A stretch of 9,731 nt of DNA from the NCBI GenBank assembly GCA_030698575.1, contig JAUYMQ010000419.1, positions 1-9,731 on the forward strand, in the 5' to 3' direction. The translations under genes and the position numbers were made by a program. The notes under the pieces were generated by a model. It made no database searches and was not told the DNA's origin. It worked only from the letters and a program-made list of their open reading frames with translations. This DNA comes from Deltaproteobacteria bacterium. Its GTDB lineage: Bacteria > JAUYMQ01. Below, in pieces: positions 2,257 to 8,417 of this stretch. How positions within the stretch are numbered: the first letter of the stretch is position 1; every line of letters begins with the position of its first letter.

Positions 2257-2772
2257 ATGCAAAACGGAGAAAGACTGCATATCGGATGCGGCAACACACG
2301 CATTGAGGGCTTTATCAACATAGACCGCCGCCGTACCGAAGCGACAGACCTGGTGGCGGAAGCGTGGGACCTGGATGTGTTCGACGACGTGAAGTATATC
2401 TACACCCGCCACATGCTTGAGCACCTGAACTGCGCCGACGCGCGGCGGGCGCTCACCGCATGGCGGCGGGCGCTGGCGGCGGACGGGATTCTTCATGTTG
2501 TTGTGCCGGACATCGCCTTTCATGCGCGTCAACTGCTCGGCCTGTCGCGCTCGGACAACGCCGACCAGGAAGCTCACGCCCTCGCCGGGTTTTACGGCTG
2601 GCAGCGGGACATGGAAAACGACGTTCACCGCTGGGGGTACACCCCGGCGAGCCTGGCCCGGTTGCTCGGCGAGCACGGTTTCGCGCCAACTGATGATGGG
2701 ATTAAGGCGTTGATCGACCGCGACACCGCGCCCTGGCACATTAATTTGTGTGCCAGGCCGGAGGCTGCATGA
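2257..2772 (+). CDS. Class I SAM-dependent methyltransferase, small (COG4627-like)
   Basis: The predicted 171-residue protein transfers a methyl group from S-adenosylmethionine; the acceptor is unknown. ATG 2257 is preceded by GAGAGG at 2246-2251. The glycine-rich SAM motif is LHIGCG (residues 7-12), followed by EGFINIDRR with Asp23 at the end of strand 2. HMLEHL (52-57) matches the post-motif helix of COG4627-type enzymes, and DGILHVVVPDI (76-86) is the strand 5 region. HRWGYTPASLARLLGEHGF (~124-142) is the usual late helix before the last strands. Such enzymes often occur in surface-polysaccharide clusters, so a sugar acceptor is plausible but unproven. There is no DNA-methylase catalytic motif such as DPPY. 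It overlaps the next gene by ATGA, which suggests translational coupling, and it follows a possible terminator, which suggests a separately acquired cassette. Confidence 0.85.
   Translation: MQNGERLHIGCGNTRIEGFINIDRRRTEATDLVAEAWDLDVFDDVKYIYTRHMLEHLNCADARRALTAWRRALAADGILHVVVPDIAFHARQLLGLSRSDNADQEAHALAGFYGWQRDMENDVHRWGYTPASLARLLGEHGFAPTDDGIKALIDRDTAPWHINLCARPEAA
2760..2764 (+). promoter_or_regulatory. Ribosome binding site that decides the start of the two-domain protein
   Basis: GGAGG at 2760-2764 lies four bases before ATG 2769. The same frame also offers ATG 2748, but no Shine-Dalgarno sequence precedes that codon. The start at 2769, overlapping the upstream TGA as ATGA, is therefore preferred. 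Confidence 0.65.
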
Positions 2773-4145
2773 TTCCCGGCGAGCGCCAGGTGGCGCCCAC
2801 GCTGGACGGTATCCGGGCAGACCATACTGCGCGGTATCGGTGGGCTGCAAGGCAATTGCCAGCTGGCAGAAAGGTAATCGACTTCGCTACCGGATGCGGG
2901 TACGGATCGCGCATATTGGCCGACGCCGGCCATGCCGCGCTCGGCTTTGACATAGACGCAGAGGCCATTGAATACGCCAAGAAACACTACGGCTCCAAGC
3001 CGGGGGAGCGTGGCGCGCACTTCGGCATCGCGGACGGCAACAGCCCGGGAGAATTGCTTCCGGCAGACGCCGCGGTTTGTTTCGAGACCATCGAGCACAT
3101 TGAAGACCCACGCCCGCTGCTGAAGGCGCTGGCGAAGTCTGCGCCGCTGCTGTTGGCAAGCGTGCCGAATGAGGATGTTGTCCACTGGGAACGCTCTCCA
3201 GGAGTAAAAACGCGGTTCCACTTCCGGCATTACACGAAGGGCGAGTTTGACGCCCTGCTGCGCGAATGCGGCTGGATTGTCTCGGAATGGTGGGGACAGG
3301 ACGGCACGGAGTCCGATGTCGAACGGGACATTGCCGGCCGGACGCTGATTGCGGTATGCAAGCGTGCAGAAGCGAGTCCGGCTGTAAGGCCGACGAAGAT
3401 CGCCATTGTCGGCGGGGCCCCGAGCAGCGCGCACCTGGCCCCATATGACGACGCGAGCTATGAAATCTGGGTACACGGCAACCAGATCGACCGGCACGCC
3501 GGCAAGCGGGTAACGCGGATTTTCGAGATCCACGATGACCTGAGCGAGCACGGCGACCCGCTGAAGTATGCGCAGATGCTGGTGGACAAGGGCATTCCGA
3601 TGGTTGTCGGTGAGCTTTTCCCGATCAAGGCGGCGCACGTTGAGGTTTATCCGTTCGAGGCCGTGAATCGGTTCATGGGCGAGCACCTGACCAGCACGCC
3701 GGCCTACATGATGGGCTACGCGATGCTGCGCAGCGATGTGAAGGAAATCATGATCTACGGCTGCGACATGGCCGTTGACGATCACGAGTATTTCTACCAG
3801 CGTCCGGTGATGTACGCATGGATCGGGCTTGCGATTGGGCGGGGCATCAAGATCGGAATTCCAAGGGCGTCGTCGTTGTTCAAGGATCCGTACGTCGAGG
3901 GTAGGAAGTCGGGCGGCAAGCCAAAGCTCGGCCTTGGGCCGTTCAGGGAGTCGGAATTCAAGCTCCTACACACGAAGCACGGCGCGAAGATGGCAGAAAT
4001 ACAGGACCAGATTGCGAAGCTGCAGTTGACCTACGCCGCGCACAACGGCTGTCAGCAGACGTATGAAAAGCTCGGCTCGGCAGCTCGAGCGATTGAGTCC
4101 GGGCAGCACATCGAAACCCTCACACAGACGACGGTGGTGATATGA
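2769..4145 (+). CDS. Two-domain protein: class I methyltransferase plus C-terminal DUF115/Maf-like Rossmann domain
   Basis: With the start at 2769 the product has 458 residues. Residues ~20-200 form a SAM methyltransferase domain: motif I is VIDFATGCGYG (36-46), GFDIDAEAI (59-67) supplies the acidic ribose-binding position, and CFETIEHIEDP is the strand 4/helix region. A second domain begins at KIAIVGGAPSS (210-220), a glycine-rich nucleotide-binding-type loop. It continues with EIWVHGN, FEIHDD, STPAYMMGYAM, IYGCDM (329-334) and YFYQRPVMYAWIGLAIGRG. I know this second part as a recurrent phage protein type that resembles DUF115/Maf-like Rossmann folds; some DUF115/Maf proteins are linked to glycosylation. 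The last ~75 residues are a charged, helical tail. ATGA couplings at both ends place it firmly in the operon. The substrates of both domains are unknown; the methyltransferase call is strong and the second-domain call moderate. Confidence 0.83.
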   Translation: MIPGERQVAPTLDGIRADHTARYRWAARQLPAGRKVIDFATGCGYGSRILADAGHAALGFDIDAEAIEYAKKHYGSKPGERGAHFGIADGNSPGELLPADAAVCFETIEHIEDPRPLLKALAKSAPLLLASVPNEDVVHWERSPGVKTRFHFRHYTKGEFDALLRECGWIVSEWWGQDGTESDVERDIAGRTLIAVCKRAEASPAVRPTKIAIVGGAPSSAHLAPYDDASYEIWVHGNQIDRHAGKRVTRIFEIHDDLSEHGDPLKYAQMLVDKGIPMVVGELFPIKAAHVEVYPFEAVNRFMGEHLTSTPAYMMGYAMLRSDVKEIMIYGCDMAVDDHEYFYQRPVMYAWIGLAIGRGIKIGIPRASSLFKDPYVEGRKSGGKPKLGLGPFRESEFKLLHTKHGAKMAEIQDQIAKLQLTYAAHNGCQQTYEKLGSAARAIESGQHIETLTQTTVVI

Positions 4146-4450
4146 AATTCGAATTCATCTACAAGACTGATGTTCCAGTGATGTCCTACGGCCGCATGGT
4201 TTCGACCGGCGATATTGTCGAGCTTGAGGGGAACCTGGCCGAGAAAGCAAAGGCGCACGTCACGCATTACAGGCTGCTTACAGAGCCGCAGGACGGCGCC
4301 GCGGCGGCAACCGATGCCGAGCAGCAGGACTACGCACAGCACGGCCTCCCGACCGGATTGGACGAACTGCGCGCGGCTTATGAGGCAAAGTTCGGAAAAG
4401 CCCCGCATCACCGGAAGTCGGCTGAAACGCTGCGCGAGGAGCTTGAATAA
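4142..4450 (+). CDS. Small phage protein with C-terminal helical (HeH/SAP-like) segment
   Basis: The 102-residue product is not recognised by name. ATG 4142 overlaps the upstream TGA (ATGA), and a GGTGGTGA stretch lies directly before it. Residues 1-50 look like a small beta fold (KFEFIYKT, GDIVELEG, HYRLL). Residues ~51-68 are a low-complexity Ala/Gln/Asp linker. Residues ~72-101 (LDELRAAYEAKFGKAPHHR, then KSAETLREELE) resemble the helix-extended-loop-helix type of short nucleic-acid or protein-binding segment found in small phage head proteins. This resemblance is weak and based on pattern only. The tail could contact packaged DNA or a partner in the head. It sits between the methyltransferase cassette and the adaptor gene. 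Confidence 0.68.
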   Translation: MKFEFIYKTDVPVMSYGRMVSTGDIVELEGNLAEKAKAHVTHYRLLTEPQDGAAAATDAEQQDYAQHGLPTGLDELRAAYEAKFGKAPHHRKSAETLREELE

Positions 4451-4650
4451 TGGCGGCTTCCCCCGGTGATTATGACGACGAAGGCGAGCCCGTCTGGACC
4501 CCAAACATTCACGGCAACACCGGGCATGCCGGCTACGTGAGTTCTGAGCGCCGCGGCGAAACAGCGGTTCAGGAGCTGCGCGAGGTCGTCGCCGAGGTCA
4601 CACGCGGGCGCATACCGGCGCCAACCAGGCGCGGGCCTGGATTTTATTAA
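4450..4650 (+). CDS. Small hypothetical phage protein
   Basis: This 66-residue product is of unknown function. ATG 4450 shares its A with the upstream TAA (TAATG), and GAGGAG at 4436-4441 gives a well-spaced ribosome binding site. The N-terminal half is polar and probably unstructured (DYDDEGEPVWTPNIHGNTG). One helix follows (TAVQELREVVAEVTRG, ~38-53), and then a proline/arginine tail ending in GPGFY. Small proteins with an ELR-x-VV-x-EVT helix and a short hydrophobic end occur near adaptor genes in related phages, as far as I recall. The tight coupling on the left, and only 10 nt before the next gene on the right, support real expression. Confidence 0.62.
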   Translation: MAASPGDYDDEGEPVWTPNIHGNTGHAGYVSSERRGETAVQELREVVAEVTRGRIPAPTRRGPGFY

Positions 4651-4660
4651 AGGCTAGGCA

Positions 4661-5008
4661 ATGGCAACGAAAGCTGAACTACGCGACCGCGCTGCGAACG
4701 ACCTGGGGCTGTTGCGCCTCGGGCAATCTCTACAGGCGCAGGACGCGACGCGCATCGAGTCGGCCTATGCCGAGGTCTATGCGGACCTGAAAACGGAGGG
4801 GCTGAACGTCTGGGCGTCTACCGGGACCTGCCCGGCCGAATTGACGCCGCACGTCGCCGCGTTGATGGCAGACAACTGCCTGAACACCTACGGCGTATCG
4901 CCGGCACGGTATCAGCGGATCAAGATCGCCGCTGGCAGGGCGAAGCCTGAGATCCGCCGCTTGCTGACCCCTCGCTTTGAGTCCGTAGAAGACGCGACGG
5001 ATTACTAA
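4661..5008 (+). CDS. Head-to-tail adaptor / tail accessory factor, P22 gp4-like
   Basis: The 115-residue, almost wholly helical protein would bind below the portal ring and extend the DNA channel, as P22 gp4 does. Visible support includes the N-terminal helix KAELRDRAANDLGLLRLGQ, then ESAYAEVYADLKTEGLNVW, in which the Trp falls where gp4 has its own (residue ~47). AALMADNCLNTYGVSPARYQ follows, and then a helix ending in EIRRLL. The product is shorter than P22 gp4 (about 166 residues), mostly at the C-terminus. Position gives extra weight: the next gene is a clear gp10-like protein, and gp4-gp10 is the P22 order. ATG 4661 follows AAAGG at 4649-4653. An alternative is a head-completion adaptor of another family with a similar helical fold. 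Confidence 0.7.
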   Translation: MATKAELRDRAANDLGLLRLGQSLQAQDATRIESAYAEVYADLKTEGLNVWASTGTCPAELTPHVAALMADNCLNTYGVSPARYQRIKIAAGRAKPEIRRLLTPRFESVEDATDY

Positions 5009-6403
5009 ATGCTTGTTCCCATCAATCTGACCGGCGGGACGTACAAGCATCCCTCCCTGCCGCTGAGCGCGCAAGTCACGCGCAATTTCTGGCCGCAGCA
5101 GATCGACAACCAATCTGCGCGGTCTCCCTACATCCTCGAATCGTGGCCGGGGCTGACGTTGTTTGGCGCAGGCTCTGGTGCCGACGGTGGGCAGTTCGAG
5201 CATAACGGCATCCTGTACCACGTCTGCGGAACGACCCTGTACACTGTGGCCGCGGATGGCGCGCATACCTCCCGTGGAAGCATCCTCGGTTCCGGTCCGT
5301 GCATCTTCGACGGCATCGGGCAGGACGTCGTTATCGTGCGCGGCGGCGTGGCGAAGGTTTGGGACGGGACTACGCTCTCGACCGTATCCGGCGTTGAAAC
5401 CCCGAACAGCGCGACGCACATCAACAACCAGATGCTCTACGACGGGGACGAGGGGCGCTTTTGCTCGTCGAATGTTGGGGACGCAGCGACGATCAATGCG
5501 CTCAACTACGCGACCGCGGAAAGTAGCGCCGATGACCTGTTGAGGGTGTTTTCCTTCAACGAGCAGGCCTTGCTACTGGGGAGCAAGACCATTGAACGGT
5601 GGTGGAATTCAGGCGTTGGAAATCCTCCGTTCGATCGCGTGCAGGGCGGGACCATAGAAATCGGGCTGAAGGCCATCTATTCCGTAGCGAGCAATAAGGA
5701 CTCCGTTTACCTCCTTGGGACTGACTTTCGCATCTACCGAATGTCCGAAGGCGGGGCGCTCGCAATCACCGATCGCGCCATGTCGCGCGAATTCTCAGAC
5801 TTCTCTGATGCCTCAGACGCGATTGGCTGGTGCTTCACGAAAGACGATCAGTACTTCTACCAGATCACGTTCCCGACTGCGGACAAGTCATTCGTCTACC
5901 CGGAAGGCGGGCAGTGGTTCGAGGTTTCCTCTGGCATGTCAGGATGCCGAAGCGTCGCCAACTCCTACGCCTACGCATTCGGCAAGCACCTGATCGGCGA
6001 CTATCGCAACGGCAACCTGTATGCGCTGGATGACGACGCGTTCACGGAAAACGGCGAGACGATCCGCAGGGTACGCGACACCGGGCCGCTGCACGGCGGG
6101 CTTGTTCGTGCGCCCGGGAAGACGCTTGAAATGAGTCGCTTCGAGCTGATCATGGAGACCGGCGTCGGCCTGGTTTCGGGTCAGGGCAGCGACCCGGTTG
6201 TCATGTTGTCGTTTTCCGATGATGGCGGCCGGACGTTCTGCACCGAGACCTGGGGCACGGTCGGGCAGCTCGGGGCGTATTTGTGGAAGGTGGAATGGTT
6301 CGCGCTCGGCTCGTTCATGTCGCGGATTATCCGCATCGCCATAACCGATCCGGTTAAATGCTCTATTCACTCGGCCGCTGCTGACGTTGACATAGGAATC
6401 TGA
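5009..6403 (+). CDS. Packaged DNA stabilisation protein, P22 gp10-like
   Basis: The 464-residue product matches P22 gp10 (about 472 residues) in length and layout. gp10 binds under gp4, closes the tail tube after packaging and provides the socket for the tail needle. Corresponding landmarks include SPYILESWPGL near residue 39 (gp10 has a comparable S-G-Y-L-x-S-F-P-G-I), LLGSKTIERWW around 189-199 (gp10 GSSTIEYF), GGTIEIGLKAIYSVA soon after (gp10 VQKGIAG), and a C-terminal YLWKVEWFALGSFMSRIIRI-x-I-TDPVK (gp10 W-K-R-V-G-R-I-R...V-x-TKSPV). The beta-rich repeats between these fit the gp10 propeller-like body. The start is ATG directly after the upstream TAA; its Shine-Dalgarno sequence is weak, so it probably depends on ribosomes finishing the adaptor gene. 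It overlaps the next gene as TGATG. Confidence 0.88.
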   Translation: MLVPINLTGGTYKHPSLPLSAQVTRNFWPQQIDNQSARSPYILESWPGLTLFGAGSGADGGQFEHNGILYHVCGTTLYTVAADGAHTSRGSILGSGPCIFDGIGQDVVIVRGGVAKVWDGTTLSTVSGVETPNSATHINNQMLYDGDEGRFCSSNVGDAATINALNYATAESSADDLLRVFSFNEQALLLGSKTIERWWNSGVGNPPFDRVQGGTIEIGLKAIYSVASNKDSVYLLGTDFRIYRMSEGGALAITDRAMSREFSDFSDASDAIGWCFTKDDQYFYQITFPTADKSFVYPEGGQWFEVSSGMSGCRSVANSYAYAFGKHLIGDYRNGNLYALDDDAFTENGETIRRVRDTGPLHGGLVRAPGKTLEMSRFELIMETGVGLVSGQGSDPVVMLSFSDDGGRTFCTETWGTVGQLGAYLWKVEWFALGSFMSRIIRIAITDPVKCSIHSAAADVDIGI

Positions 6404-6810
6404 TGATCCCGATTCAGCCTCCGCCGCCGCCAGAAAAGACCGGCAACGCTCAGGTCGACGCCTACCTGACGCGGATTTACAAGTGGGCCTACCTGCTCTG
6501 GTTCTACATGAGCGGGGAAGGCAGAGGGGACGCGGCGATCATCGATTCGTCCACCGGTGGTGCTGGCAGCAGCGCCCTGGCGGCACTTCGCATTCCCGGT
6601 CTTGATGGCGAGGATGGCGAGGACGGGCAAATGGGCCTCCCCGGCCAACAGGGGGCGCAGGGCGTCACTGGCCAGTCAATTCCCGGCCTGGATGGGCAAG
6701 ATGGCGAGGACGGTTTCGTGTTTCAGCAGCGGACCTACGGAGCGACGTTTGGGCCAGCAGCAGTCGCATCAATTACCGTGGTCGATGGTGTTGTCACGGC
6801 TATCTCATAG
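6403..6810 (+). CDS. Collagen-like virion protein in the tail-needle position
   Basis: The 135-residue product has a proline run (residues 6-10) and an amphipathic, aromatic helix (DAYLTRIYKWAYLLWFYM, 19-36). A Ser/Gly/Ala linker follows, then a collagen-like run of G-X-Y triplets from 66 to 104 (GLD GED GED GQM GLP GQQ GAQ GVT GQS, an IP interruption, GLD GQD GED G). A short beta-type end closes the protein (ASITVVDGVVTAIS). Collagen-like repeats in phage proteins form trimers, and trimers are the norm for tail needles and fibres. In P22 the gene after gp10 encodes gp26, the trimeric needle that plugs gp10. Position and oligomer type together make this a candidate plug or spike, but I see no sequence match to gp26. 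ATG 6403 overlaps the gp10-like stop, with AGGA at 6394-6397. Confidence 0.78.
   Translation: MIPIQPPPPPEKTGNAQVDAYLTRIYKWAYLLWFYMSGEGRGDAAIIDSSTGGAGSSALAALRIPGLDGEDGEDGQMGLPGQQGAQGVTGQSIPGLDGQDGEDGFVFQQRTYGATFGPAAVASITVVDGVVTAIS
6592..6714 (+). repeat. Duplicated 36-nt collagen segment flanking a central G-X-Y stretch
   Basis: The segments 6592-6627 and 6679-6714 encode IPGLDGEDGEDG and IPGLDGQDGEDG, which differ by one residue. Between them lie six further G-X-Y triplets plus the leading residues of the interruption. The nucleotide copies differ mainly at third positions, as expected for an older internal duplication kept by protein-level selection. Confidence 0.7.
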
Positions 6811-7190: not shown

Positions 7191-7602
7191 CATCGGCGCG
7201 CCGAGCGCTGATGAAATAAAGCGCGTCCTGCTCGACCCTGAAATCTGGGAGCGCGAGACCGACGATCACTGCGGGCCGGCTTCATCGTTTCCCGGGCTAC
7301 CGGACACTGTGCGGTGTCTCGGCGGGTACGTCGAGGATGCGATTATCGGGCTTGCCATGACGCACAAGACCGAGGTCGGCACCAAGATCCATTTCGCTGT
7401 GTTGCGGCCCTACAGGGCGCACGCAAGAGCGTTCCTGATGCGTGCCCTAGAGATTCTTGGCCCGGTGTACTGCGATATCCCGGAGTGCTACCGAGCAGTC
7501 ATCAATTTTGCGCTGCATGCCGGATTCGTTGCGACCGGGCGCGCGGGGCGTTACTTGAAACACGGAATCAGCCATCAAAGGACGCGGCTATGTCGATCAT
7601 AA
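7171..7602 (+). CDS. P22 gp14-like protein, DUF2824 (GNAT-like fold)
   Basis: The predicted protein of up to 143 residues belongs to the family of P22 gp14, a late protein needed for particle assembly with a degenerate acetyltransferase-like fold. KIHFAVLRPYRAHARAFLMR (72-91) is the GNAT motif A-like strand and helix, although the usual R/Q-x-x-G-x-G/A acetyl-CoA loop reads RAHARA here. Y-C-DIPECYRAVINFALHAGF (100-119) is the second family hallmark. Acetyltransferase activity is doubtful. The first possible start is GTG 7171, inside the previous gene; TTG 7177 and TTG 7183 are in-frame alternatives, and no ATG lies nearby in the frame. The start is uncertain by a few codons. Its place just before the gp7-like gene is exactly the P22 order. 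Confidence 0.78.
   Translation: MKLGLCSIGAPSADEIKRVLLDPEIWERETDDHCGPASSFPGLPDTVRCLGGYVEDAIIGLAMTHKTEVGTKIHFAVLRPYRAHARAFLMRALEILGPVYCDIPECYRAVINFALHAGFVATGRAGRYLKHGISHQRTRLCRS
7577..7582 (+). promoter_or_regulatory. Ribosome binding site that decides the start of the gp7-like gene
   Basis: AAAGGA at 7577-7582 lies 7 nt before ATG 7590. The reading frame stays open far upstream, to 7314, but that part encodes Arg/Cys/His-rich shadow sequence in another frame of the gp14-like gene. ATG 7590 is the true start. Confidence 0.8.
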
Positions 7603-8417
7603 GTGACCTGTTTGGCGGTGGAGACGCGGCTGACGCATCCAAGGAGGCCGCTGGAGTACAGTCCGCGGCAACGCAAGAGGCGACAGCGTTCCAGCGGGAA
7701 GCGCTTGCGACAACGCGGGCAGACCTGCAGCCGTTTCGTGCGGCCGGCGAGGCCGGGCTGCCGGGTCTCAGCAAGAGCGTTTCCAGCCTGTCGGATCTGG
7801 CGAACGATCCGAATAAGCAGGTCTCCCTCGTCAAGGACAATCCATTCTTCAAGCTACTCGCCGATGACGCGCAGAGCAGGCTCTTCGCCAACCAGGCGGC
7901 CAAGGGCAAGGTCGGATCAGGCGAGACCGCCAAAGCCCTGCAAAACAGCCTGCTCCTGCTTGGCCAGGACTTGCTCAATCAGGACGTGAACCGCAAAAAC
8001 ACGGCCATCAATCAGCAGTTCAACCTCGCCACGTTGGGCGCGAACGCAGCGGCGAGGCAGGGAACAGCGACGGCGAACACGGCGAGCAATATCTCAAATC
8101 TTGCAACAGAGGGCGCAAACGCTACCGCCGCCGGGATTGTCGGCGCCGCGAACGCGAAGACCGCGGCAACCAATTCGGCAATCAACACCGGAATGTCGGC
8201 CGCGGCTTTGTTCCTGTCGGATAAACGGCTGAAAACAGACATCCGCAAGCTCGGGAAGGACGACATAGGCCTGAACGTCTACGCCTTCAAGTACAAGGGC
8301 GACGACAAGCGGCGCGTCGGCCACATGGCGCAGGATGTGGAGAAGAAATTCCCCGATGCGGTGAAGACCATCCGCGATATCAAGTTCATCGATTACGGAG
8401 AACTCCATGCCAATTGA
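7590..8417 (+). CDS. P22 gp7-like DNA-ejection protein with C-terminal S74-type intramolecular chaperone/protease domain
   Basis: The 275-residue product starts MSIISDLFGGG. Residues ~20-200 have the gp7 layout: an Ala/Gln-rich helix, then ADLQPFRAAGEAGLPGLSKS (gp7 has a comparable L-K-P-F...L), a middle part with GKVGSGETAKALQNSLLLLG (gp7 G-G-L-G-S-T-A-T-S-N-Q-L), and an Asn/Ala/Thr-rich tail. In P22 gp7 is one of three proteins released from the virion into the host envelope. Residues 209-275 are different: LSDKRLKTDIRKLG, then GLNVYAFKY, GHMAQDVEKKFPDAV and a final IKFIDYGEL match the Peptidase_S74 self-cleaving domain of tail spikes and fibres. Ser210 and Lys215 have the S-x4-K spacing of the catalytic dyad. 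Cleavage before Ser210 would leave a 209-residue body, near gp7 in size. It overlaps the upstream gene by 13 nt and the downstream gene by 11 nt. Confidence 0.8.
   Translation: MSIISDLFGGGDAADASKEAAGVQSAATQEATAFQREALATTRADLQPFRAAGEAGLPGLSKSVSSLSDLANDPNKQVSLVKDNPFFKLLADDAQSRLFANQAAKGKVGSGETAKALQNSLLLLGQDLLNQDVNRKNTAINQQFNLATLGANAAARQGTATANTASNISNLATEGANATAAGIVGAANAKTAATNSAINTGMSAAALFLSDKRLKTDIRKLGKDDIGLNVYAFKYKGDDKRRVGHMAQDVEKKFPDAVKTIRDIKFIDYGELHAN

Follow-up and report, generated by a model that had tools for sequence, protein, structure and literature searches.

Results

The window, by which we mean the whole 9,731-base stretch of DNA analysed, corresponds to contig C455 of genome G000 (653 contigs) and carries part of a podophage late operon, ordered as major capsid protein (MCP), variable protein, 165-residue cement protein, methyltransferase MT1, fusion protein, two small genes, portal adaptor, head closure protein Hc3 and injection proteins; the features from the MCP to Hc3 all lie on the forward strand. 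The MCP is represented by its C-terminal part (positions 8-811; phrog_334, E 2.9e-29; Phage_capsid_3, E 2.3e-25), its 5′ side being cut by the contig start, and a profile of its relatives matches the MCP of cyanophage Pam1 (7eel, E 4e-84). Then comes d823 (823-1674), a small virion protein with no assigned role that is kept in L004, L005, L020, L031 and other loci and whose presence varies among relatives. Between the cement gene (1684-2181) and the portal adaptor gene (4661-5008) lies a slot whose right border, the adaptor, is kept in relatives in the order seen for the annotated adaptor of Pam5. In the window the slot holds MT1 (2257-2772), a fusion protein (2769-4145) made of a methyltransferase domain, MTd (2769-3377), and a C-terminal domain, Cdom (3378-4145), a small FxxG-like head-operon protein (4142-4450; phrog_590, E 4.5e-9) that adjoins Cdom again in relatives, and a small gene without a known family, called from its open reading frame only (4450-4650). 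ATGA overlaps join the genes at 2769-2772 and at 4142-4145, and Hc3 (5009-6403; phrog_578, E 8.9e-76) follows the adaptor. Open reading frames and profile matches agree with the first-pass annotation in its coordinates, its ATGA overlaps and both of its methyltransferase calls, and they bear out its placement of the cassette between a head decoration candidate, here the cement protein, and the portal adaptor. Farther downstream, a short protein encoded 3′ of Hc3 (6403-6810) contains collagen-like GXX repeats (GLDGEDGEDGQMGLPGQQG), and a P22 gp7-like DNA ejection protein (7590-8417) ends in a Peptidase_S74 (endosialidase chaperone) domain, an unexpected combination.

The protein encoded at 1684-2181 is homologous to a structurally proven cement protein. 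Its profile matches cement gp1 of Ralstonia phage GP4 (PDB 8h89_J, E 7.5e-5), and the best fold match of its AlphaFold2 (AF2) model (pLDDT 82.5) is the Pam1 cement protein (7eel_H, E 1.6e-4, TM 0.60/0.69). The GP4 cement forms trimers on the head exterior (PMC9698820). Capsid and cement proteins of the Pam1, Pam5 and GP4 heads are homologous to those of the window, and Pam1 and Pam5 share with it the order MCP, cement, adaptor; however, their slot lacks Cdom and their cement is of type B, whereas that of the window, the candidate substrate of Cdom, is of type A. At locus L154, about six tandem cement-like genes follow the MCP gene in one operon.

MT1 (171 residues) is a class-I SAM methyltransferase by its match to Pfam Methyltransf_23 (30.6 bits against a cut-off of 27, E 3.4e-7), and it has no NCBIfam match. 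The gene at 2769-4145 encodes 458 residues from an ATG start, a GTG at 2748 being the less likely start, and its residues 29-169, MTd, match the same Pfam family (42.4 bits, cut-off 27, E 8e-11). MTd is also fused to Cdom in L004 and is a separate gene with an ATGA overlap in L024; elsewhere its place is taken by another methyltransferase or a radical SAM enzyme, or is left empty. A counterpart of MT1 was sought in L004, the closest relative, and in all other related operons, and none was found. A double-methyltransferase cassette as a conserved unit is ruled out, with MT1 private to the window and MTd optional, and the emphasis that the first-pass annotation had placed on the pair was wrong.

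Cdom comprises residues 204-458, approximately, of the fusion protein (3378-4142 in the window) and has no family match in Pfam or PHROGs. The closest relative, L004, shares the operon, with Cdom 87% identical, the methyltransferase fusion present and MT1 missing; L005 encodes Cdom as its own gene, with no methyltransferase. A profile scan returned 43 viral loci, in about 30 of which a standalone Cdom gene lies between the cement and adaptor genes. The standalone gene, of 235-265 and typically about 245 residues, is the usual form of Cdom, and since dozens of contigs have it at the same position, the arrangement in the window is not a matter of chance. In an alignment of 37 Cdom sequences P22, W31, H52 and G128 are invariant and S106, D130, E137, Y138, Q141 and R142 nearly so, polar pocket-type residues are kept down to about 26% identity, and a long C-terminal helix (residues 191-240) is conserved, as judged from the alignment and the AF2 model. 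Taken from the sequences, conservation across these 37 divergent members looks enzyme-like. Among cultured phages the sole record with a Cdom relative is Microcystis phage PP496355, where it stands just before terminase. Cdom is upstream of terminase in some distant phages as well, away from any known cement gene, and PHROGs supplied no name for the small virion-like neighbours of distant Cdoms. Searches of sampled genomes for PF06002 and Cdom found almost none, and a search of genome contigs found one contig of a Ca. Brocadia MAG that carries the standard Cdom operon. In an unrelated genome, two tandem Cdom paralogues follow a possible virion protein (L078:1480-2866; G101:C114).

What kind of domain is Cdom? 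An AF2 model built from the 37 sequences (mean pLDDT 90.1) was matched best by VIA to residues 269-498 of the Maf flagellin glycosyltransferase (5mu5; Z 11.6 over 157 residues), followed by GT42 CstI and CstII (Z 10.4-11.2), archaeal HPPK (8sd5; 10.6), TPK (about 9) and mammalian sialyltransferases (7-8), after which the scores drop to 5.7. Foldseek recovered the same fold group, weakly, with TPK as the top match, and the name MptE-like is given to several proteins of this fold from uncultured phages. By the AF2 model and VIA, the fold of Cdom is that of both the DUF115/MptE-like and the GT42 proteins. It is an enzyme-type fold; a match to a non-enzymatic structural fold, which the first-pass annotation had named as evidence that would tell against it, was not found. 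Sequence comparison gave a different answer. The top match of the Cdom profile in the PDB is a sialyltransferase, weakly (E 0.03), and the profile alignment with GT42 covers the stretch TS..YM..A....G...I...G.D. None of the 37 members matches PF01973 at E <= 1, and hhalign of Cdom alignment A3 against nine bacterial PF01973 proteins was not significant (probability 0.6%, E 0.1, 15 columns); four of the 37 match CST-I (PF06002), with a best E of 0.053, below the cut-off; and the three-domain architecture of Maf is absent, the standalone genes being only about 235-265 residues long. The Pfam and profile tests speak against Cdom as a sequence member of DUF115 or GT42, and because they fail we term it a Maf/GT42/MptE-fold domain and not a family member. 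The segment that holds the catalytic His in CstII is presumably absent from Cdom. The original DUF115/Maf-like call is thus upheld for the fold (Z 11.6 to Maf, 10.6 to HPPK) and not for sequence membership of PF01973 or GT42. The central PF01973 domain of Maf is said to resemble Cst-II (PMC11339370), with which the Cdom result agrees.

We surveyed 103 non-redundant head operons, drawn from capsid-anchored scans and the earlier Cdom loci. Cdom is present in 37 and absent from 66, about two thirds, with at least 15 gains or losses on the capsid tree, and in the main lineage its slot is constant: 3′ of the cement gene and before the adaptor gene. Because this position is fixed, a scatter of the genes at random genome positions, raised in the first-pass annotation as a counterargument to its own reading, is excluded for the main lineage. 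Every operon with Cdom has a type-A cement (37/37), as against 13 of the 66 without it, of which a further 41 have a different cement and 12 have none detected. The link holds for independent pairs on the capsid tree (9.6:0, p about 0.002) and in the MCP-anchored subset, in which operons were not selected by way of Cdom (type A in 30/30 with Cdom and 13/66 without). A filter-free HMM search for divergent Cdoms in the operons lacking one found nothing better than E 1.2, and an Hc3-anchored scan returned mostly other capsid lineages, in which window-type MCP and Cdom were both undetected. Cdom thus implies a type-A cement and not the reverse, as would be expected of a cement that is the target of Cdom; alternatively, the neighbouring genes may be inherited together.

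The contents of the slot add a second dependence. SAM enzymes of four kinds immediately precede Cdom, and their genes often overlap its start: MTd in the window, L004 and L024, a second methyltransferase type in seven operons, a Methyltransf_24-like protein in two and a radical SAM/SPASM protein in four. Each of the 16 stands next to Cdom, and the 66 Cdom-lacking operons contain no such enzyme (pairs 8.9:0, p about 0.004). As the models for these partners were derived from loci that carry Cdom, the 16/16 may be biased. Because of this possible bias, we listed all unidentified slot ORFs of the Cdom-lacking operons and found among them no methyltransferase or radical SAM protein; they comprise 2OG-Fe(II)-oxygenase-like proteins in seven operons, an HNH gene and small proteins. 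The oxygenase-like genes follow the cement gene in L112, L113, L151, L243, L255, L260 and L336, which have no Cdom and other cement types; these calls come from weak Pfam scores and, for L151 and L243, from judgement by eye. Further genes were noted: a Sulfotransfer_2 protein directly 3′ of the capsid gene of phage CBW1004C-Prop1 (L158:7101-7631), a protein that resembles it by eye and has no Pfam match (L244:6298-6783), and HNH endonuclease genes within or beside the slot (L016:5513-5998, L090:8541-9029 and L022:7127-7612, the last two by sequence).

Does the cement itself carry a mark of Cdom? In a first set, cement position 66 is Tyr in 34/34 operons with Cdom and 4/13 without; the prediction was then fixed before the sample was widened, and the residue was found in 36/37 operons with Cdom as against 4/13 type-A operons without it (p 2.6e-6). 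Position 72 and columns of the MCP, which mark lineage, do as well, paired tests give p of about 0.06, and in L250 a cement with Met66 stands beside an intact Cdom. Since lineage columns score equally and L250 breaks the pattern, we reject Tyr66 as a modification site beyond a weak lead and claim none.

Maf and GT42 enzymes take CMP-nonulosonic acids as donors. One phage contig (G298, locus L047), which belongs to a distant branch and has another capsid, carries a Cdom that overlaps the capsid gene (ATGA), and the contig also encodes NeuB (NCBIfam NeuB, E 4e-79; PseI, 6e-66) together with a cytidylyltransferase whose nearest match is PseF (E 7e-21). Among the Cdom virus records searched it alone has NeuB, and the same search of 20 phage contigs lacking Cdom found none. 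The capsid/Cdom overlap, NeuB, a cupin sugar-isomerase-like gene and the PseF-like cytidylyltransferase were noted at L047:2700-8953 and L362:1093-1884. At L049:593-1354, the stop of a glycosyltransferase-like gene (phrog_1574, weak Anp1) overlaps the start of a distant Cdom. In the genome of the window, a putative host only, two NeuB genes adjoin a CTP_transf_3 cytidylyltransferase gene on contig C394; several NeuB genes are found in the Brocadia MAG that carries a Cdom operon, again only a putative host.

Discussion

What might a Maf/GT42/MptE-fold domain do in a phage head operon? To our knowledge, few systems of phage virion glycosylation are known. Here, a conserved family that has no model in Pfam or PHROGs is tied to one cement type and accompanied by putative tailoring enzymes that are swappable. 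The gene set is suggestive of a chemical decoration that these phages apply to their own shell. We propose that Cdom is a transferase that would modify the cement protein encoded just upstream, and that the likeliest donor would be a CMP-activated nonulosonic (sialic-acid-like) sugar, normally obtained from the host and in one distant relative probably made by the phage. Cement trimers bearing the modification would then cover the capsid, and the SAM enzyme directly upstream of Cdom would act on the added group by methylation or another tailoring step, a task that in the window may fall to the fused MTd and the extra MT1. Such a tailoring role would account for the exchange of the SAM enzyme between phages. 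To this whole chain, from a transferase acting on the cement, perhaps with a nonulosonic sugar, to interchangeable SAM enzymes that tailor its product, we assign a probability of about 0.4. Doubtful, in our view, is the more specific version, a podophage capsid-coating family in which a one-domain Maf/GT42-type O-glycosyltransferase adds a nonulosonic sugar to the cement trimers and swappable SAM tailoring yields a variable sugar coat. The first-pass annotation had suggested virion modification; the tie of Cdom to type-A cement, the restriction of the SAM enzymes to its side and the one phage with a donor pathway all favour that idea, and the modification itself we infer. Several observations weigh against this reading: the sequence tests for family membership fail, the fold also includes pyrophosphokinases, genes that lie side by side may be inherited together even if neither acts on the other, about two thirds of the sampled operons have no Cdom, 13 of them despite a type-A cement, NeuB is found in only one of the Cdom virus records searched, on a distant branch, and in other distant phages Cdom is away from any known cement gene.

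The same enzymes might instead act on the host. Cdom and the SAM enzymes would then alter the host envelope late in infection, by sialic-acid-like capping and methylation of surface polysaccharide, with the head operon providing late expression only; the purpose might be, for example, to keep progeny from re-adsorbing to debris or to prevent superinfection. GT42 enzymes normally sialylate lipooligosaccharide, the NeuB and CMP-sugar synthetase of one Cdom phage would serve this purpose too, and the TayeBlu paper (PMC12772287), with its annotated phage sialyltransferase and its speculation about exopolysaccharide, belongs on the same side. We nevertheless hold an envelope target to be unlikely, as it leaves unexplained both the strict tie to one cement type and the single fixed slot of the main lineage. 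That tie, together with the conserved long helix at residues 191-240, would be accommodated by an inactive assembly helper or chaperone of type-A cement, built on an old enzyme fold and binding the cement trimers through the helix, but a helper would not be expected to keep polar pocket-type residues down to about 26% identity, to have SAM companions that occur only with Cdom, or to be dispensed with in 13 type-A operons; we judge it the less probable of these two.

Two further readings take the enzymes away from any surface. Archaeal HPPK/MptE (DUF115) and TPK share the core fold of Cdom (Z 9-10.6), and TPK, at about 9, tops the Foldseek matches, so that Cdom could be a small-molecule enzyme of this kind with a pterin or nucleotide substrate, perhaps in DNA or cofactor modification. 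Its context, however, is virion structure with SAM and sugar enzymes and not cofactor synthesis: Cdom is linked to a capsid cement and accompanied by methyltransferases, radical SAM proteins and, in distant phages, a glycosyltransferase-like gene or NeuB. This reading is improbable, marginally more so than the inactive helper. The least probable is that the slot is a neutral cargo site for unrelated enzymes (methyltransferases, 2OG-oxygenase-like proteins, sulfotransferase, HNH) with no common substrate. HNH genes, 2OG-oxygenase-like genes and a sulfotransferase do indeed occur there, but phylogeny-aware tests show the SAM enzymes to depend on Cdom and Cdom to depend on the cement type.

How would a cement-modifying transferase compare with known systems? 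Maf (MAF_flag10, PF01973) moves CMP-activated nonulosonic acids onto Ser/Thr residues of a surface protein that polymerises, flagellin (PMC11339370). Cdom has the Maf fold in common, but it is a single domain of about 245 residues without the Maf N- and C-terminal domains, has no sequence match to PF01973 and is linked to a phage cement instead of flagellin. With the GT42 enzymes CstI and CstII (PF06002) it shares the fold (Z about 11) and the TS..YM..A....G...I...G.D stretch, whereas its sequence scores below the family cut-off. The mycobacteriophages Che8 and Rita are reported to encode glycosyltransferases and to carry glycans on their major capsid proteins (PMC11256854, citing Freeman et al. 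2023); by comparison, Cdom is linked to the cement in podophages, is of a different fold class as far as is known, and has swappable SAM enzymes.

If our proposal is true, shell modification would be a regular, evolvable trait in a large group of environmental podophages. The analysis yields a short list of genes for testing in which the likely substrate protein is named, and, again if the proposal is true, the Maf and GT42 enzymes that are used in glycoengineering would gain a minimal relative with a single domain.
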